The notes under the pieces were generated by a model that was not told where the DNA came from, ran no database searches, and was given only the letters and a program-made list of their open reading frames with translations. From the NCBI RefSeq assembly GCF_017745095.1, contig NZ_JAGHZZ010000060.1:141169-205168 (forward strand): a DNA stretch of 64,000 nucleotides, in the 5' to 3' direction. The number at the start of each line of letters is the position of its first letter. Positions within the stretch are counted from its first letter, which is position 1. The DNA is from Sporocytophaga sp. Its GTDB lineage: Bacteria > Bacteroidota > Bacteroidia > Cytophagales > Cytophagaceae. Shown one piece after another: positions 15,522 to 22,810 of the stretch. The position numbers were made by a program, and so were the translations under genes.

Positions 15522-16328
15522 ATGGAAAAAACAGTTTCCGATTCAATCAACAGAAAACTGGTAGACATTACCAGGAAATTCTATAATTATCCTGATGGAA
15601 AAATTAAGGGTAATCAAAGAGATTTAAACATAGCTGATTTATTAAATATAAATTCAGCTACAATAACAGGTATATACAATCATGTCAGTTGTGGTTATGA
15701 TTTTTTCAGTTCTAACACCAAGGCAATTTTAGGATTTGATCATAAAAAGTTCTTGCAAGGAAACATCCAATTTATACTTTCCTTATTGCATCCAGCGCAA
15801 AGAGATCTTTTCGACAATGAAATCCTTCCACTACTTTTTAAGTATTATCATTTGTATTCTCAGAAAAGAAAAGTCACTGACCTTAAATTAAGTTTTACTT
15901 TAAAGATGAGAAGAAGTGATGGCAACTATATTTGGACTTTATTAGAATTGAGGCCATTTAAAACCAACTCCAAAGGACAGCCCATTCATTCAATACTTTC
16001 AATATCTGATGTTTCTTTATTTAAAAAAGATGAAGTAAATGAGTTTCTTGTTTGCAAAAAATCAGACGCAGGCCTGTTAAAAAAAATCTTCTCTACCAGC
16101 TTTAGCTCTACAGGTGCCAAATACAAATTTTCAAAGAGAGAACTCGAAATCATCTCTCTTCTGGCAGAAGGAAAGACAAGCAAAAAGATAGGTGAAATTC
16201 TAAATCTCAGTGTCCACACAGTTTCTACGCACAGAAAAAATATGATTGAAAAGAGCAGTGTGCAGAACACCACTGAATTGATAAAACTGGCAACTATTAG
16301 GGGCTTAATAGAAAATTTTAATAGATAA
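15522..16328 (+). CDS. PAS domain LuxR-type transcriptional regulator
   Basis: 268 residues. A PAS-fold sensor lies at about 45-170 (GYDFFSSNTKAILGFDHKKF, the sequence MRRSDGNYIWTLLELRPF and the closing ILSISDVS are typical of PAS_3). A LuxR/GerE helix-turn-helix covers about 203-265 (FSKRELEIISLLAEGKTSKKI, LNLSVHTVSTHRKNM). There is no receiver domain, so it is a one-component regulator. The ligand is unknown. An inverted repeat upstream (15424-15462) is a candidate autoregulatory site. It is convergent with the TonB-domain gene cluster. Confidence 0.9.
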   Translation: MEKTVSDSINRKLVDITRKFYNYPDGKIKGNQRDLNIADLLNINSATITGIYNHVSCGYDFFSSNTKAILGFDHKKFLQGNIQFILSLLHPAQRDLFDNEILPLLFKYYHLYSQKRKVTDLKLSFTLKMRRSDGNYIWTLLELRPFKTNSKGQPIHSILSISDVSLFKKDEVNEFLVCKKSDAGLLKKIFSTSFSSTGAKYKFSKRELEIISLLAEGKTSKKIGEILNLSVHTVSTHRKNMIEKSSVQNTTELIKLATIRGLIENFNR

Positions 16329-16337
16329 TAAGGACTC

Positions 16338-16769
16338 TTATTTTAAGGAATGGTGTTTTTCAGGAAGTCTGAATATTACTGGTAATATCTGGCATCCTGA
16401 AACAGCCTCTCCATCTATTGTGGCAGGATTCCAAGCCGGCATTAGTTTTATTACCCGCAATGCTTCCTCGTCAAAAAATATTTGCCCAGGCTCAGCTATT
16501 CTGGGATCCATTATATTTCCGTATATATCAATATCAAAGGTAACAAATACTGTATCTTCTAGCCCTTTTATCAAAGCCTCTTCCGGGTATTGGAGATTTT
16601 GCTTTAAATATATTTTCAGATTCCCTCTAAATGTGGCTGGCTTTTTCTTTTGTTTTCCTGCCGTTGATTTATATGCTTCTTTAGAATTCGAAAGCGTAAT
16701 TTCAGTTGAATTATTAGCTGATGCTATTCCGGAAAATAGTATCAATGCCACAATCATCAGATTTCTCAT
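16338..16769 (-). CDS. Secreted TonB C-terminal domain protein (third of three)
   Basis: The ATG at 16769 is chosen because it starts a signal peptide (MRNLMIVALILFSGIASA); the in-frame TTG nine bases earlier is not needed. The rest, about 120 residues, is a TonB C-terminal domain: LKIYLKQNLQYPEEALIKG, VFVTFDIDIYGNIMDPRI, DEEALRVIKLMPAWNPA, LPVIFRLP. There is no membrane anchor or proline-rich spanning region, so it cannot act as a classical TonB energy transducer. Such free-standing domains are common in Bacteroidota, with unknown function. It starts 9 bases after the stop of the preceding paralogue, in one operon. Confidence 0.8.
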   Translation of the reverse strand: MRNLMIVALILFSGIASANNSTEITLSNSKEAYKSTAGKQKKKPATFRGNLKIYLKQNLQYPEEALIKGLEDTVFVTFDIDIYGNIMDPRIAEPGQIFFDEEALRVIKLMPAWNPATIDGEAVSGCQILPVIFRLPEKHHSLK

Positions 16770-16778
16770 AAATAACAA

Positions 16779-17240
16779 TTACTTTTTACCTTTTTTAGAC
16801 AGAAGAAATTCTACTGGTAACACCTTTTTACTATCAACGGGTTTGCCATCCGAATATCCAGGTTTCCAATCTGGCATTAACTGAAATACTCTCATTACTT
16901 CTTCATCAAAACCATTACCAAGTCCTCTTACAATACGAGGATTAATAATTTTACCAGTTGAGTCTATAGTGAATTCTACAAAAACTTTTCCTTCAAGCTT
17001 ATTTTTCAATCCCTCTTCCGGATACTTAATATTTTCACGAAAAAACTTTTCCAGATTGTACGGACAAACTGGTGGTCTAAAATTATCAGTATCCTCAGAT
17101 TTGTTCTTTTTTTTATCAGGATAAATTCTTTCTCCTTTGGAGTTAACTATTGAACTTTCATGGACAAAATCTGATTGAGCAGATGCTATTACATTAAATG
17201 TAAGCAAAAGAAGAATTATAAAAATATACTTAGAGATCAT
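16779..17240 (-). CDS. Secreted TonB C-terminal domain protein (second of three)
   Basis: 153 residues. The signal peptide ends at about residue 21 (MISKYIFIILLLLTFNVIASAQ). A charged linker with several Lys follows (PDKKKNKSED). The TonB C-terminal domain contains LEKFFRENIKYPEEGLKNK, VFVEFTIDSTGKIINPRIV, DEEVMRVFQLMPDWKPG and LPVEFLL. It lies between two paralogues on the same strand, with 30 bases to the upstream one. As with its neighbours there is no TonB membrane helix. Confidence 0.8.
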   Translation of the reverse strand: MISKYIFIILLLLTFNVIASAQSDFVHESSIVNSKGERIYPDKKKNKSEDTDNFRPPVCPYNLEKFFRENIKYPEEGLKNKLEGKVFVEFTIDSTGKIINPRIVRGLGNGFDEEVMRVFQLMPDWKPGYSDGKPVDSKKVLPVEFLLSKKGKK

Positions 17241-17270
17241 TTATAAAATTAAATCAATTTATGTGAATCA

Positions 17271-17660
17271 TTAATCAGGTAATCGAAATATTAAAGGAAG
17301 CGACTTCTCACTCTTAACAGGTTCACCTTTTTTAGTTGCAGGATTCCAGGGTGGCATTATACCTATCACTCGTAAAAATTCATTATCTAATAATTCATGC
17401 ACACTCTTTACAATATGAATATTTGAAATAATTCCATTTGTATCAACCATAAAAGTGGCGACAACTTTACCTTGAATTCCTTTATTTTGTGCTCCCCGAG
17501 GATATATTACATTTTCCCTAATATACTTCTCCAAATCTCCTTTAAATGAAGCAGGAATAATTGAATCCCCAGATACACTGTCAATCTTTGGAGATGTCTC
17601 TATTTGGCCAAATGCATTCAAAGGAAAAACAAGAGCCAGTAAAACAATTATCTTATACAT
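17271..17660 (-). CDS. Secreted TonB C-terminal domain protein (first of three)
   Basis: The ATG at 17660 begins a signal peptide (MYKIIVLLALVFPLNAFGQ); an in-frame TTG nine bases upstream is ignored. The product of about 129 residues has a TonB C-terminal domain: LEKYIRENVIYPRGAQNKG, VVATFMVDTNGIISNIHIV, DNEFLRVIGIMPPWNPATK, LPLIFRLPD. It is the promoter-proximal member of the three-gene cluster, which probably arose by tandem duplication; the three are clearly related but quite diverged. Confidence 0.8.
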   Translation of the reverse strand: MYKIIVLLALVFPLNAFGQIETSPKIDSVSGDSIIPASFKGDLEKYIRENVIYPRGAQNKGIQGKVVATFMVDTNGIISNIHIVKSVHELLDNEFLRVIGIMPPWNPATKKGEPVKSEKSLPLIFRLPD

Positions 17661-17693
17661 ATCTGTCAAAAAATTATATACAAATATAAACAG

Positions 17694-18419: not shown

Positions 18420-20303
18420 TTAATCCATAATTAAAAGTTCCCAGTTTTCAATTTCTTTTATCTTAAGAGTCTTCCTTTTCTCATCCTGCCTTTGCTGTAC
18501 TCTTTTTCTGAATTCCCAACAAGTATTTTTGCCAATCTCCAGCTTCACACTTAACTCATCCAAAGTATACTTAGCCGTTTTGAGATTTGTACAGTAAAGC
18601 AGATAAAAGGCCTTATTCAAAGGAATTTTAATCCCGTGAAAGAGAGTATTAGAAGTTGGAGATTCTATGTAATTACACTTTGTACATTTTCTTGAAAAAG
18701 TTTTTTCAGAAAACTTTCCATTGTTACACTTCCTGCAAACATACCCTTCTGCCCATTTCAACTCTTCTAAATATCTGAGACATGCACTCTGATCCGGAAA
18801 GGTTGTTAAAAATTCTTCAAGAGAAATCTCTTCTGAAACTATCCTTGCCTTGCGTTCTTCCTTCACCTTGGTCTTTAGTTTCCAGTTATCCAGATCAAGC
18901 TGAATATTCATTTCAGCCAGCTTTTTAGAATACAATTCCAGTTTATCATGAGCCAAAGACAATTCATCTGTCTTCTCCTGAAGTGCTCTTGTCCGCTCTT
19001 GTACTTTCATATCCAACTCCCTATTTACTTTGCCCGCAAGCAGATTCTTCTCTTCCAATTCAACAACTAATTGGCCTTTAAGATCATTGTTTTCTTTTAA
19101 ATGAATGATGATTTGTTTGTCAGCCTCATTCTTTTCTTTCCTGATCATCTTGAGCCTGTCTCCTAGTGCAAATGAAAGAATCATAGCTTCAGCAAGAATC
19201 CCATAATTAAAAACATATACACTAAAAATATCTGGTTCTATAATTTTATTTAACCTGAGCTGAAGGATGATCAAGGATATAAAGACTACTGTATAACCCA
19301 GTATAAAAAATCTGGCTGCCTTATAACCTTTTATATAGATATAAATAGAAATTGCATAAATCAATACAAAAGGCACTATATATAGCTCTGGCAAAGAAAA
19401 TTTAGAATTTCTGAACGCTTCAATACCAACATAACAAGTATATAATATTGTAAGAAAAAGTAATGTTTTATCAGCTTGAGGAAAGTTTATTTTCAGATTT
19501 AGAAAAGCTCTTGCATAGAATACAGAACTGATAAGAAATACCAGAGGGGCAATGTAATAATAGAGATAAAGACTATCTGAAGAAAAACCTTTCCAGAAAA
19601 CCTCTACTCCCAGACCATCTTCTGTAAGAGATAGGAATATGCAAGCAACAACATAAACAGAATAAAATAAATAAACCCTCTCCTTATTGGTAATATAAAG
19701 CAGCAGGTTATAAATCAGCATTAGCAGAAGACAGCCATAATAAATACCAAGAAAGAAATACTCATATAACGCATAAGCGGTAAAGTAATGCTGAGACCTT
19801 ATTTTAAATTCTAGTCCGGTATCATTAGGAGAATAAATCCTGGCATAAACTGTATAATTAGTAAGCGTAGACGGTAAGTCAAAGACGTAATTTTTATGAG
19901 GATAGCTTTTGGCCTTTTGATGAAGCAGACCTGAAGTATATTGCCTTATAACCCCCTTTTCATCCGGAATCCATACATCCAATAATTTAATGTTGGGCGT
20001 AAGACTTTCCAGCACCCATTTTTTATCCCTTGAGGCATTATTCTTAACATGAAATCTGATCCAATAAACAGAAGAAGGATTAAAGTTTCTTAAAACTCCA
20101 CTTTCTGATTTAAAAAAGGTTCCTTTTGATGCTATTTCTTCAAATGTTTTTTCACCTGAAAAATCCTCCAACCATTCAGCTTCTTTTCCCTGAATGATCA
20201 AATCTTCTGCGTGATCTGTCAGATCAATTTTTGCATAAATTTCCCCCACTGATAAAATCAGACAAGTCAGAAAAATTATAAACCTGAAAACTCGACTGCT
20301 CAT
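18420..20303 (-). CDS. 7TMR-DISM receptor fused to an IS1595-type transposase zinc ribbon
   Basis: The ATG at 20303 begins a signal peptide (MSSRVFRFIIFLTCLILSVG); an in-frame ATG at 20384 would add 27 polar residues. The 627-residue product has an extracytoplasmic 7TMR-DISMED2 domain (about 25-175), seven membrane helices (about 185-390), and a coiled coil (about 395-490). A C-terminal module of about 110 residues follows. That module begins FPDQSACLRYLEELKWAEGY, has a CxxC-x13-CxxC ribbon (Cys523, Cys526, Cys540, Cys543), then NTLFHGIKIPLNKAF and a helix-turn-helix-like LDELSVKLEIGKNTCWEFRK. This is the N-terminal zinc ribbon and HTH of ISXO2/IS1595 transposases. The DDE catalytic domain is absent. 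It is predicted to be a membrane receptor with a domesticated DNA-binding end. The usual kinase or cyclase output is missing. Confidence 0.85.
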   Translation of the reverse strand: MSSRVFRFIIFLTCLILSVGEIYAKIDLTDHAEDLIIQGKEAEWLEDFSGEKTFEEIASKGTFFKSESGVLRNFNPSSVYWIRFHVKNNASRDKKWVLESLTPNIKLLDVWIPDEKGVIRQYTSGLLHQKAKSYPHKNYVFDLPSTLTNYTVYARIYSPNDTGLEFKIRSQHYFTAYALYEYFFLGIYYGCLLLMLIYNLLLYITNKERVYLFYSVYVVACIFLSLTEDGLGVEVFWKGFSSDSLYLYYYIAPLVFLISSVFYARAFLNLKINFPQADKTLLFLTILYTCYVGIEAFRNSKFSLPELYIVPFVLIYAISIYIYIKGYKAARFFILGYTVVFISLIILQLRLNKIIEPDIFSVYVFNYGILAEAMILSFALGDRLKMIRKEKNEADKQIIIHLKENNDLKGQLVVELEEKNLLAGKVNRELDMKVQERTRALQEKTDELSLAHDKLELYSKKLAEMNIQLDLDNWKLKTKVKEERKARIVSEEISLEEFLTTFPDQSACLRYLEELKWAEGYVCRKCNNGKFSEKTFSRKCTKCNYIESPTSNTLFHGIKIPLNKAFYLLYCTNLKTAKYTLDELSVKLEIGKNTCWEFRKRVQQRQDEKRKTLKIKEIENWELLIMD

Positions 20304-20530
20304 AAATTGCTTTTTTCTAAGATCGTTACTCCGGGATGACTTTTCATCACCATTTAACCATAAAAACTTGAATAACAGACACAAAACTAAGGTAATAAAC
20401 CGTAATTTTATTCTTCAATAACGAAGATTACCCAGCCCAAAAATATAATTTTTTATAAAAAATCTTATTTATTTCTTATTTCTCTTCCTATTCTTTGCTA
20501 TCGATTACATGGTAAAAAATTAATTATCCT

Positions 20531-22810
20531 ATGAAAAGATTATTTAAAAAGTTAACTAAAGCTGGTAATCTAGTAGTTATGGCTTTAGCATTCAGTTATC
20601 AAAATACCCAGGCGCAAAGTCAGGATCAAAAGATTGATCATCTGATATCTCAGATGTCTATTGAAGAAAAAGTAGGTCAGATGACACAAATTGACCTGAA
20701 CCTGCTTGCTGTCAATGGATACCAGAACACAGACGGTAGTCTTGATAAAGAAAAGCTTAAAAAAGCTATTCTTGAATACAAGGTGGGCTCCGTCCTTAAT
20801 CCTGTTGGAAGAGCCTATTCTGTTGAGACCTGGCATAAGATCATTACAGAAATCCAGGACTTAGCGAAAAAGACGCCTAACAAAATTCCTGTGATATATG
20901 GAATAGATGCAGTGCATGGAACAACTTTTACCCTTAATTCAACACTTTTTCCTCATAACCTGGGACTTGCAGCTACTCGAAATGAGGACCTTGCCAAACA
21001 AGGAGGAAACATAACTGCAAGAGAAGTAAGAGCTTCCGGCATCAGATGGAATTTCTCTCCTGTATTAGACGCTGGCAGACAGCCATTATGGTCAAGATTT
21101 GCAGAAACCTGGGGTGAAGATGTCTACCTTACCAAACAAATGGGAGTTGCAACCATCAAAGGTATGGAAGGCGATGGTCTTAAAAATCCTACAGCTGTAG
21201 CATCATGTATGAAGCACTTTATCGGCTATTCTGCTCCAAGAACAGGTAAGGACAGAACACCGGCTCATATTCCTGATATTATTCTCAGAGAATATTATCT
21301 GCCTCAATTTAAAGCTGCTATTGAAGCTGGTGCATCCACAGTAATGATTAACTCGGCAGAAATCAATGGCATACCAACCCATGCAAATGAATACCTTCTG
21401 AAAGAAGTGCTAAGAAAAGAACTTGGCTTTAAGGGATTAGTCGTAACAGACTGGGAAGACATTATAAGATTGCACAACAGACATATGATCGCTGCTAGTC
21501 CTAAAGAGGCAGTTAAGATAGCTATTAATGCAGGTATTGACATGAGTATGGTACCTAATGACTATAGCTTCTTCACCTATCTGACCGAACTTGTAAAAGA
21601 AGGACAAGTAAGCATGGAAACGATTAATGCATCTGTTAAAAGAATATTAAAGCTTAAATATGATCTGGGATTATTTGACAATCCTTATCCTGAAAAATCA
21701 GCTGCCTCTTTGTTTAACCTTCCTGAATATGGTGCAGCAGCACTGCAGGCTTCAAGAGAGTCTATAACGCTCTTAAAAAATGAAACCCTTGGAACAAGTC
21801 CGGTATTGCCTTTAAAGAAAAATGCTAAGATACTCCTTGCCGGTCCCGGAGCTGATAACCTTCCAAGTCTTCACGGATGCTGGTCTTATTCATGGCAAGG
21901 TAACAATAGCAAATACTATCCTTCCACAACCAAAACAATTCTTCAGGCAATAGAAGAAAAAACAGGTAAAAACAATGTTACCTTTTACGGTTCAAAAGAA
22001 TATAATAGCGAGGTCAATTTTGCTACAGAATCTATTTTTAAATATGCATCATCGTTTGACTTCATTGTTCTTTGTCTTGGAGAAGATGCATATGCTGAAC
22101 AGCCTGGAGCCATCGATGAATTAGCGCTTCCTGCAAATCAGTTAAATCTTGCCAAAGTAGCAATTAGCACAGGCAAGCCAGTAATTCTTATCATGACTCA
22201 AGGCAGACCTCGCGTGATCAATACTATAGTTCCTGGTGTAAAAGGAATTATACAAGCATATTGGCCAGGTACCAAAGGTGCTGATGCAATAGCAGACGTA
22301 TTGTTTGGAGATTATAACCCTGACGGCAGATTGCCATTTACTTATCCTGCAGCCACAGGAGATCTGGTTTTGTATGATCACAAGTTTACTGAAAAAATTC
22401 AGGAAACAGCTCAAGGGTTTGAATACAATGGATACAAACCACAGTGGCCTTTCGGTTTCGGCCTTAGCTATACGACTTTTGAATACAGTCCTATTAAGGT
22501 CAACAAGAAAGAGTTTACAGGAAATGAAACAGTAAAAATTTCAGTGGAAGTGAAAAACAGTGGGCAGATGAATGGAAAACATACTGTAGAATTATATTCG
22601 AGAGACCTGTTTGCCAGCGTCACACCTGACAACAAGCGCCTTAGAAAATTTAAAAAGGTTGCAATCAAAGCTGGAGAAACTGTCACTATAGAATTCGAAC
22701 TAGACAAAAATGATCTGGCATTTGTAAATAAAAAGCTGGAGACTGTAACTGAGCCTGGTGAATTTGAGTTAATGATTGAAAATCAAAAGGTGTTAATTTC
22801 ATATAAATAG
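20531..22810 (+). CDS. bglX: Periplasmic beta-glucosidase, GH3 (BglX-like)
   Basis: 759 residues with a signal peptide (cleavage near AQAQS, residue 30). The GH3 N-terminal domain covers about 32-370. It has the KHF motif (228-230) and the nucleophile Asp307 in VVTDWED. The GH3 C-terminal domain (about 405-630) and the C-terminal Fn3-like domain (about 665-750) complete the BglX architecture. The enzyme hydrolyses terminal beta-glucose from cello-oligosaccharides or similar glucans; periplasmic location follows from the signal peptide and from the absence of a T9SS tail. No SusC/SusD genes are adjacent, so it is not in an obvious polysaccharide-utilisation locus. Confidence 0.93.
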   Translation: MKRLFKKLTKAGNLVVMALAFSYQNTQAQSQDQKIDHLISQMSIEEKVGQMTQIDLNLLAVNGYQNTDGSLDKEKLKKAILEYKVGSVLNPVGRAYSVETWHKIITEIQDLAKKTPNKIPVIYGIDAVHGTTFTLNSTLFPHNLGLAATRNEDLAKQGGNITAREVRASGIRWNFSPVLDAGRQPLWSRFAETWGEDVYLTKQMGVATIKGMEGDGLKNPTAVASCMKHFIGYSAPRTGKDRTPAHIPDIILREYYLPQFKAAIEAGASTVMINSAEINGIPTHANEYLLKEVLRKELGFKGLVVTDWEDIIRLHNRHMIAASPKEAVKIAINAGIDMSMVPNDYSFFTYLTELVKEGQVSMETINASVKRILKLKYDLGLFDNPYPEKSAASLFNLPEYGAAALQASRESITLLKNETLGTSPVLPLKKNAKILLAGPGADNLPSLHGCWSYSWQGNNSKYYPSTTKTILQAIEEKTGKNNVTFYGSKEYNSEVNFATESIFKYASSFDFIVLCLGEDAYAEQPGAIDELALPANQLNLAKVAISTGKPVILIMTQGRPRVINTIVPGVKGIIQAYWPGTKGADAIADVLFGDYNPDGRLPFTYPAATGDLVLYDHKFTEKIQETAQGFEYNGYKPQWPFGFGLSYTTFEYSPIKVNKKEFTGNETVKISVEVKNSGQMNGKHTVELYSRDLFASVTPDNKRLRKFKKVAIKAGETVTIEFELDKNDLAFVNKKLETVTEPGEFELMIENQKVLISYK

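Follow-up and report, generated by a model that had tools for sequence, protein, structure and literature searches.

A 7TMR-DISM receptor ending in a transposase-derived zinc ribbon and helix-turn-helix: a candidate membrane-tethered regulator of glycan-utilisation genes in Bacteroidota

The window, the 64,000-nucleotide stretch of Sporocytophaga sp. DNA analysed here, contains a receptor gene on the minus strand and, diverging from it, a gene for a bglX-like beta-glucosidase. The features of this locus are as follows.

18420..20303, minus strand: receptor gene, 627 aa, ordered DISMED2, 7TM, coiled coil, zinc ribbon, helix-turn-helix (open reading frame, Pfam, and AlphaFold2)
19800..20189, minus strand: 7TMR-DISMED2 periplasmic sensor domain, residues 39-168 (Pfam PF07696, 2.9e-23)
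19155..19763, minus strand: 7TM region, residues 181-383 (Pfam PF07695, 1.4e-40, over the cut-off; seven long helices in the model)
18828..19133, minus strand: coiled-coil signalling-helix linker, residues 391-492 (model helices 359-441 and 444-490)
18486..18827, minus strand: transposase-derived module, residues 493-606 (model pLDDT 92.3; dN/dS 0.031-0.045)
18669..18797, minus strand: zinc ribbon, residues 503-545, with Cys523/526/540/543 (PF12760, Zn_ribbon_IS1595)
18465..18620, minus strand: helix-turn-helix, helices 562-573, 581-588, and 592-613
20304..20530, no strand: divergent promoter region between the receptor gene and bglX, 227 bp (conservation among congeners)
20531..22810, plus strand: GH3 beta-glucosidase (bglX-like), divergent neighbour and candidate target (PF00933/PF01915/PF14310)

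The initial annotation described an intact frame encoding a DISMED2 sensor, seven helices, and a coiled coil, in which the usual kinase, cyclase, or phosphatase was replaced by an IS1595-type zinc ribbon and helix-turn-helix. The frame begins with an ATG at 20303 and runs uninterrupted for 627 aa with no internal stops. Pfam bore out the architecture, as did the full-length AlphaFold2 model, in which the membrane region contains seven long helices and is followed by a long coil and a C-terminal module predicted with confidence. The sensor profile from receptor alignment A1 matched three solved structures of RetS-type sensors (3jyb, 2xbz, and 9jpe). Linker residues N427, T438, L469, and L476 were invariant in that alignment; model pLDDT in the linker was below 50 at residues 437-450 and 452-456. 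The Pfam scan of the window receptor found no kinase, cyclase, or phosphatase, as described, and no Reg_prop/Y_Y_Y sensor. The missing signalling enzyme leaves membership in the 7TMR-DISM family intact, because the family is named for its diverse outputs.

The four cysteines lie at positions 523, 526, 540, and 543, where they had been placed. Zn_ribbon_IS1595 matched the window receptor at 1.4e-4 and 22.2 bits by hmmscan, below the curated cut-off of 25.4, and at 27.9 bits, above it, in a whole-genome search with PF12760; the same family was over the cut-off in three relatives (L161, L162, and L138). An NCBIfam model of IS1595 transposases matched residues 559-615 weakly (17.3 bits; cut-off 75). 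The proposed resemblance of the C-terminus to transposase zinc ribbons and helix-turn-helices was therefore found. When modelled alone, the module formed a two-strand ribbon followed by three helices (pLDDT 92.3, pTM 0.82), and comparison with solved structures returned no significant match. Absence of the catalytic DDE domain was also upheld, as Pfam detected no PF12762 in the window receptor and the frame stops 21 residues past the module.

A homologue search with the window receptor returned 334 proteins at E<=0.001. The motif CxxC-x(8-22)-CxxC was kept in 120 of 121 proteins (the query and the best 120 of the 334), the sole exception being P0100, a shorter protein. In an alignment of 89 of these 121 rows (the 32 omitted were mostly near-copies and included P0100), K516, W517, and all four cysteines were invariant, and the helix-turn-helix residues K564, A565, F566, Y567, T594, F598, and K601 were nearly invariant.

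The fusion was present in many Cytophagales genomes and some Sphingobacteriales, and so is not limited to this assembly beside an insertion sequence. Among the best 80 loci listed in a GTDB contig scan, titles were mostly Cytophagales, plus Pedobacter and Mucilaginibacter, and some MAGs were labelled Flavobacteriales or Chitinophagaceae and one Rickettsiales. The module profile matched 13 of 19 genomes of near relatives, 172 of 390 in the order, and 41 of 296 in the phylum, own genome included, counts that take in transposases, which the profile also matches. Some of the receptor genes are annotated as 'transposase' or 'chromosome segregation ATPase', misnaming that hides them. The window genome (a draft of 64 contigs) had seven module matches, comprising five receptors, one remnant, and one solo protein. 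The remnant (L010, 1500-1860, plus strand, on contig C11) is a broken receptor C-terminus with stops, situated between two other genes. Three further observations on receptor copies were made: locus L046 (3608-7508) holds a tandem pair of module receptors on one strand; a divergent module receptor in G004 (L118, 2015-3888, minus strand) has an N-terminal part that may be a separate open reading frame, and is possibly broken or an assembly error; and contig C1 of G371 shows four successive 7TMR-DISM matches on one strand at approximately 3187395-3194862, with open reading frames of 701-728 aa.

The module was not confined to DISM receptors. Reg_prop/Y_Y_Y propellers are the sensor of many HTCS regulators, and in two genomes (G389 and G466) propeller proteins of 997 or 1068 aa, L161 and L162, end in the same module. 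Pfam found no kinase, receiver, or AraC domain in either protein, and L162 directly precedes susC and susD. A 138-aa protein in G178 (L138) consists of the module standing alone. A portable DNA-binding output would be expected to show such a distribution, across two kinds of sensor and a free-standing protein.

A profile built from receptor modules only found transposase-length open reading frames (306-339 aa) at 9.7e-40 to 1.9e-45 in the congener G003 and in G180, a genome with 14 matches to the module profile. Two IS1595 copies in G003 (L110, at 1870-2861, and L111) are 99.5% identical over 1006 bp, terminate in the inverted repeats TAGGATTACCCATTTA, and lie between 8-bp target duplications, TTATAGAA and TAATATAT; PF12762 confirmed a DDE domain in L110. 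This subgroup, which lies next to the receptor clade, is probably live. No transposase of the close subgroup was detected in the window's draft genome, and the only DDE match there (PF12762, on contig C5) belongs to a distant IS1595 member.

For the module tree, 113 rows were chosen by identity from 384 aligned, and removal of four long branches (L118, L018, L128, and L155) left 109, among them a contig-edge receptor fragment, L102. In the 109-row tree, a branch with SH-aLRT 98.9 had 72 receptor modules and the solo L138 together on one side. In the first tree, of 113 rows, the close IS group appeared paraphyletic; however, constraining it as a clade scored 42.5 log units better (p-AU 0.929), and the direction of capture was therefore not argued from nesting alone. 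Outgroup rows were IS1595-length open reading frames or short solo modules. None of them sits on a receptor, which makes capture by a receptor from an insertion sequence the more parsimonious direction. The module likely arose once, when the DNA-recognition end of an IS1595 transposase from Bacteroidota was captured and its DDE domain lost. The window genome also has kinase-type DISM receptors with related sensor and coil, which suggests that the output was swapped after the signalling helix.

A stand-alone IS1595-type zinc-ribbon protein of 151 aa without a DDE domain is encoded on contig C6 of the window genome (L127, 1998-2453, minus strand), and short open reading frames like it occur in the congeners G001, G002, and G003 and in G007. 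Proteins of this type are probably a second, independent domestication, because the tree rows of such short frames (L123 and L125) group among distant transposases.

The module is under purifying selection. Its dN/dS was 0.045, 0.031, and 0.041 against the orthologues of three congeners, similar to that of the 7TM region (0.024-0.034 against the same three). In the G003 orthologue (L160, 6733-8649, minus strand) the last approximately 20 residues are out of frame, which may be a sequencing error or a real change. The proposal of a domesticated transposase domain is well supported, because the module is conserved, under purifying selection, and in one clade. These data also bear on whether the fusion is a recent accident in which an IS1595 fragment inserted into the gene of a kinase-type receptor. 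Such receptors do exist as paralogues with the same sensor (L004 is 40% identical to the window receptor over residues 7-449); however, module receptors occur in many Cytophagales and some Sphingobacteriales with their modules in one clade, dN/dS is 0.03-0.045, and a close IS1595 copy was not seen in the window's draft genome. We regard such an insertion as ruled out by distribution, the single module clade, and selection, and give it next to no probability.

The divergent arrangement of receptor gene and bglX was found in 3 of 3 congeners, where bglX was recognised by its near-identical start and length. The gap between the two genes was 86-90% identical to the three congeners; the third codon positions of both flanking genes were 63-79% identical, and six other gaps in the neighbourhood were 60-89% identical. 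No SusC gene lies beside the window receptor, whose neighbour is the GH3 enzyme. Other genes in the vicinity were a Chalcone-isomerase-like protein (PF16036; 17766-18335, minus strand) 84 bp downstream of the receptor gene in the same direction, with a neighbour of similar length and near-identical start at the same place in three congeners; three small tandem proteins with TonB-C-terminal-like sequence (16338-17669, minus strand), of which the one scanned with Pfam was TonB_C; and a regulator with PAS and LuxR-type helix-turn-helix domains (15522-16328, plus strand).

We compared the neighbourhoods of 40 module receptors, sampled from the top rows of the order-level search, with those of 40 DISM receptors lacking the module, picked by long open reading frame from the listed PF07695 matches. 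Linkage was counted when SusC was the next gene of at least 150 aa downstream, on the same strand and within 800 bp. SusC was linked at 26 of 39 usable module receptors (1 of 40 was omitted for too little room) and at 0 of 40 controls (Fisher p 1.6e-11), in samples that are both non-random because they were drawn from ranked lists. When SusC was counted anywhere in the stretch on either strand, the numbers were 28 of 40 and 1 of 40. A second set (L019-L098), overlapping the first in 12 loci, had SusC next downstream at 33 of 63 usable loci (17 of 80 omitted for room). Pfam on representatives confirmed SusC, SusD, GH30, GH97, and GH16, with GH30 in one SusC-linked locus.

The remaining 13 of the 39 sampled module receptors had no SusC immediately downstream, and SusC and SusD were absent within about 1.5 kb of the four other receptors of the window genome (L002, L003, L005, and L006). 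Neighbours at loci without SusC next were picked by hand, including two (L020 and L025) with too little room for the SusC count; 18 proteins were scanned, 14 of them from such loci. Eleven of these 14 hand-picked neighbours were glycoside hydrolases, a glucoamylase, or a sulfatase (three GH9, one of them also with ThuA; two GH30; and one each of GH18, GH20, GH97, GH81, glucoamylase, and sulfatase). The other three were a glycosyltransferase-3-type enzyme, a TPR histidine kinase, and a DISM kinase.

We then searched the receptor-susC gaps for a common motif by expectation maximisation (EM) at width 22, using 50 non-redundant gaps of 63. The motif TcAaTGTTTTTtAagcGttAAA had a log-likelihood ratio of 259.6, compared with 106.9-111.4 for three dinucleotide-shuffled sets, and its best sites were forward in 45 of the 50 gaps at a median of 170 bp from the susC start. 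In five-fold cross-validation, the held-out score was at least 12 in 33 of 50 receptor-susC gaps; among 23 other SusC promoters, drawn from nine of these genomes, 1 reached that score. The one high-scoring promoter belongs to G569, a genome in which one receptor was detected among the 10 of 28 candidates that were scored, without SusC adjacent; the only exact match to TTGTTTTTWAAGCGCAA in that genome is upstream of susC on another contig. In G536, of the same genus, one receptor was likewise detected with no SusC beside it, and one of seven matches to the pattern (TTGTTTTTTAAGCGCAATA) falls at the 5' edge of a susC frame with an approximately placed start. The placement of the motif in G569 and G536 is a prediction, from sequence, that these receptors would act in trans.

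The motif was not significant in the window receptor-bglX promoter (best score 8.1, shuffle P 0.093) or in the gap of the HTCS-type L162 (9.9, P 0.12), and most gaps at receptors lacking SusC were unremarkable. The window recognition helix begins GKNTCWEF and has G at position 591, a residue shared by 17 of 89 rows. Because 62 of the 89 have R at that position, a different DNA site could be expected for the window protein.

One alternative is that the receptor sits beside susCD through inheritance of one ancestral locus, with the motif belonging to another regulator or being a general promoter element of that locus. Part of the linkage may stem from such a locus because the linked SusC proteins are partly related: at 45% identity, single linkage joins 52 of 63 (some counted twice) into one cluster. 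In addition, 17 of 50 held-out gaps scored below 12, and the motif was weak in some linked clusters (median 8.8 for L246, L247, L249, and L250; 8.9 for L096). However, linked SusC proteins had a median pairwise identity of only 34% and still formed nine clusters at 50%. Other receptor copies adjoin GH9, GH18, GH20, GH30, GH97, GH16/GH81, GH3, glucoamylase, or sulfatase genes (Pfam), none of the 40 DISM receptors without the module was linked to SusC, and in G569 and G536 the motif accompanies susC even though the detected receptor is elsewhere. We consider this alternative very unlikely.

Alternatively, the module could be a captured transposase end that has lost DNA binding and now forms a zinc-stabilised protein-protein interface, in which case the receptor would signal through an unspecified partner. 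Zinc ribbons often mediate protein contacts, the module is without a significant structural match, and its binding of DNA is a prediction from motif and linkage. Against this, the helix-turn-helix is conserved along with the ribbon, the motif of linked susC genes scores below 12 in 22 of 23 other susC promoters, and the module is also found by itself and at the end of another kind of sensor, as a portable DNA-binding output would be. This explanation seems to us unlikely.

Taken together, these data point to a 7TMR-DISM receptor with an IS1595 zinc ribbon and helix-turn-helix that acts as a one-component, membrane-tethered, glycan-sensing regulator of nearby glycan-utilisation genes, a reading to which we assign a probability of roughly three in four. 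The ligand would be a sugar or oligosaccharide, recognised in the periplasm by the DISMED2 domain, and the 7TM region and signalling helix would relay the change to the C-terminus. There the transposase-derived module, probably dimerised through the coil, would bind an upstream motif and so change transcription of susCD in the relatives or of bglX in the window. The initial annotation had offered either a membrane-tethered transcription regulator or a DNA-positioning protein. The former is strengthened because susC, susD, and CAZyme genes often adjoin the receptors and the receptor-susC gaps have a common motif, from which DNA binding is predicted; nothing in this analysis favoured the latter.

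Anantharaman and Aravind 2003 is said to be the founding paper on 7TMR-DISM receptors. The window receptor has the DISMED2 sensor, 7TM region, and coiled-coil linker in common with RetS, LadS, SagS, and their kin, whose output is a kinase, cyclase, or phosphatase, whereas its own is a predicted DNA-binding module. That module is homologous to the zinc ribbon and helix-turn-helix of the IS1595 transposases of the Bacteroidota subgroup L110/L111; in contrast to those, it lacks a DDE domain and is fused to a receptor. HTCS regulators combine kinase, receiver, and AraC-type output in one protein, a combination that Pfam did not find in the window receptor, L161, or L162; L161 and L162 keep the Reg_prop/Y_Y_Y sensor, and in them the ZnR-HTH module takes the place of the kinase, receiver, and AraC domains.

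Three Bacteroidetes-specific types of PUL regulator, SusR-like, HTCS, and ECF sigma/anti-sigma, are described in PMC3878776. As portrayed there, SusR-like regulators are membrane proteins with a periplasmic sensor and a cytoplasmic DNA-binding domain, often encoded beside susC/susD. By that description, the module receptors would work most like SusR, with a periplasmic sensor and a predicted cytoplasmic DNA-binding domain; their sensor differs in being DISMED2/7TM. As to position next to susC/susD, the picture was mixed: 26 of 39 sampled relatives have SusC immediately downstream, and the window copy adjoins GH3. The legend of Fig. 5 in PMC8092284 includes 7TMR-DISM among architectures drawn with the ChiS DNA-binding domain; the ChiS family is described there in proteobacterial genomes and has another DNA-binding domain, for which that legend states no transposase origin. 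Exaptation of a bacterial transposon protein as a transcription factor is outlined for the TldR proteins, TnpB-derived RNA-guided repressors, in PMC13418256. TldR is an RNA-guided, nuclease-dead TnpB-like protein, whereas the window module sits on a membrane sensor. The combination of 7TMR-DISM with a transposase-derived output was not seen in searches of open-licence papers, and the genomic role of these receptors, their linkage to susC and CAZyme genes, is new here.

For the Bacteroidota, we judge it fairly likely that these proteins form a fourth class of PUL regulator, in which an IS1595 module captured once would serve as a plug-in output through which 7TMR-DISM and propeller sensors control transcription of susCD and CAZyme genes while tethered to the membrane and without phosphorylation. 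If this is true, glycan degradation in the phylum would have a regulator class beyond the SusR-like, HTCS, and ECF sigma/anti-sigma types set out in PMC3878776. It would also mean that the recognition end of a bacterial transposase, from a family whose close IS subgroup looks still mobile, has been reused as a sensor-coupled transcription factor, and it would offer a candidate operator motif together with a portable glycan-responsive regulator.
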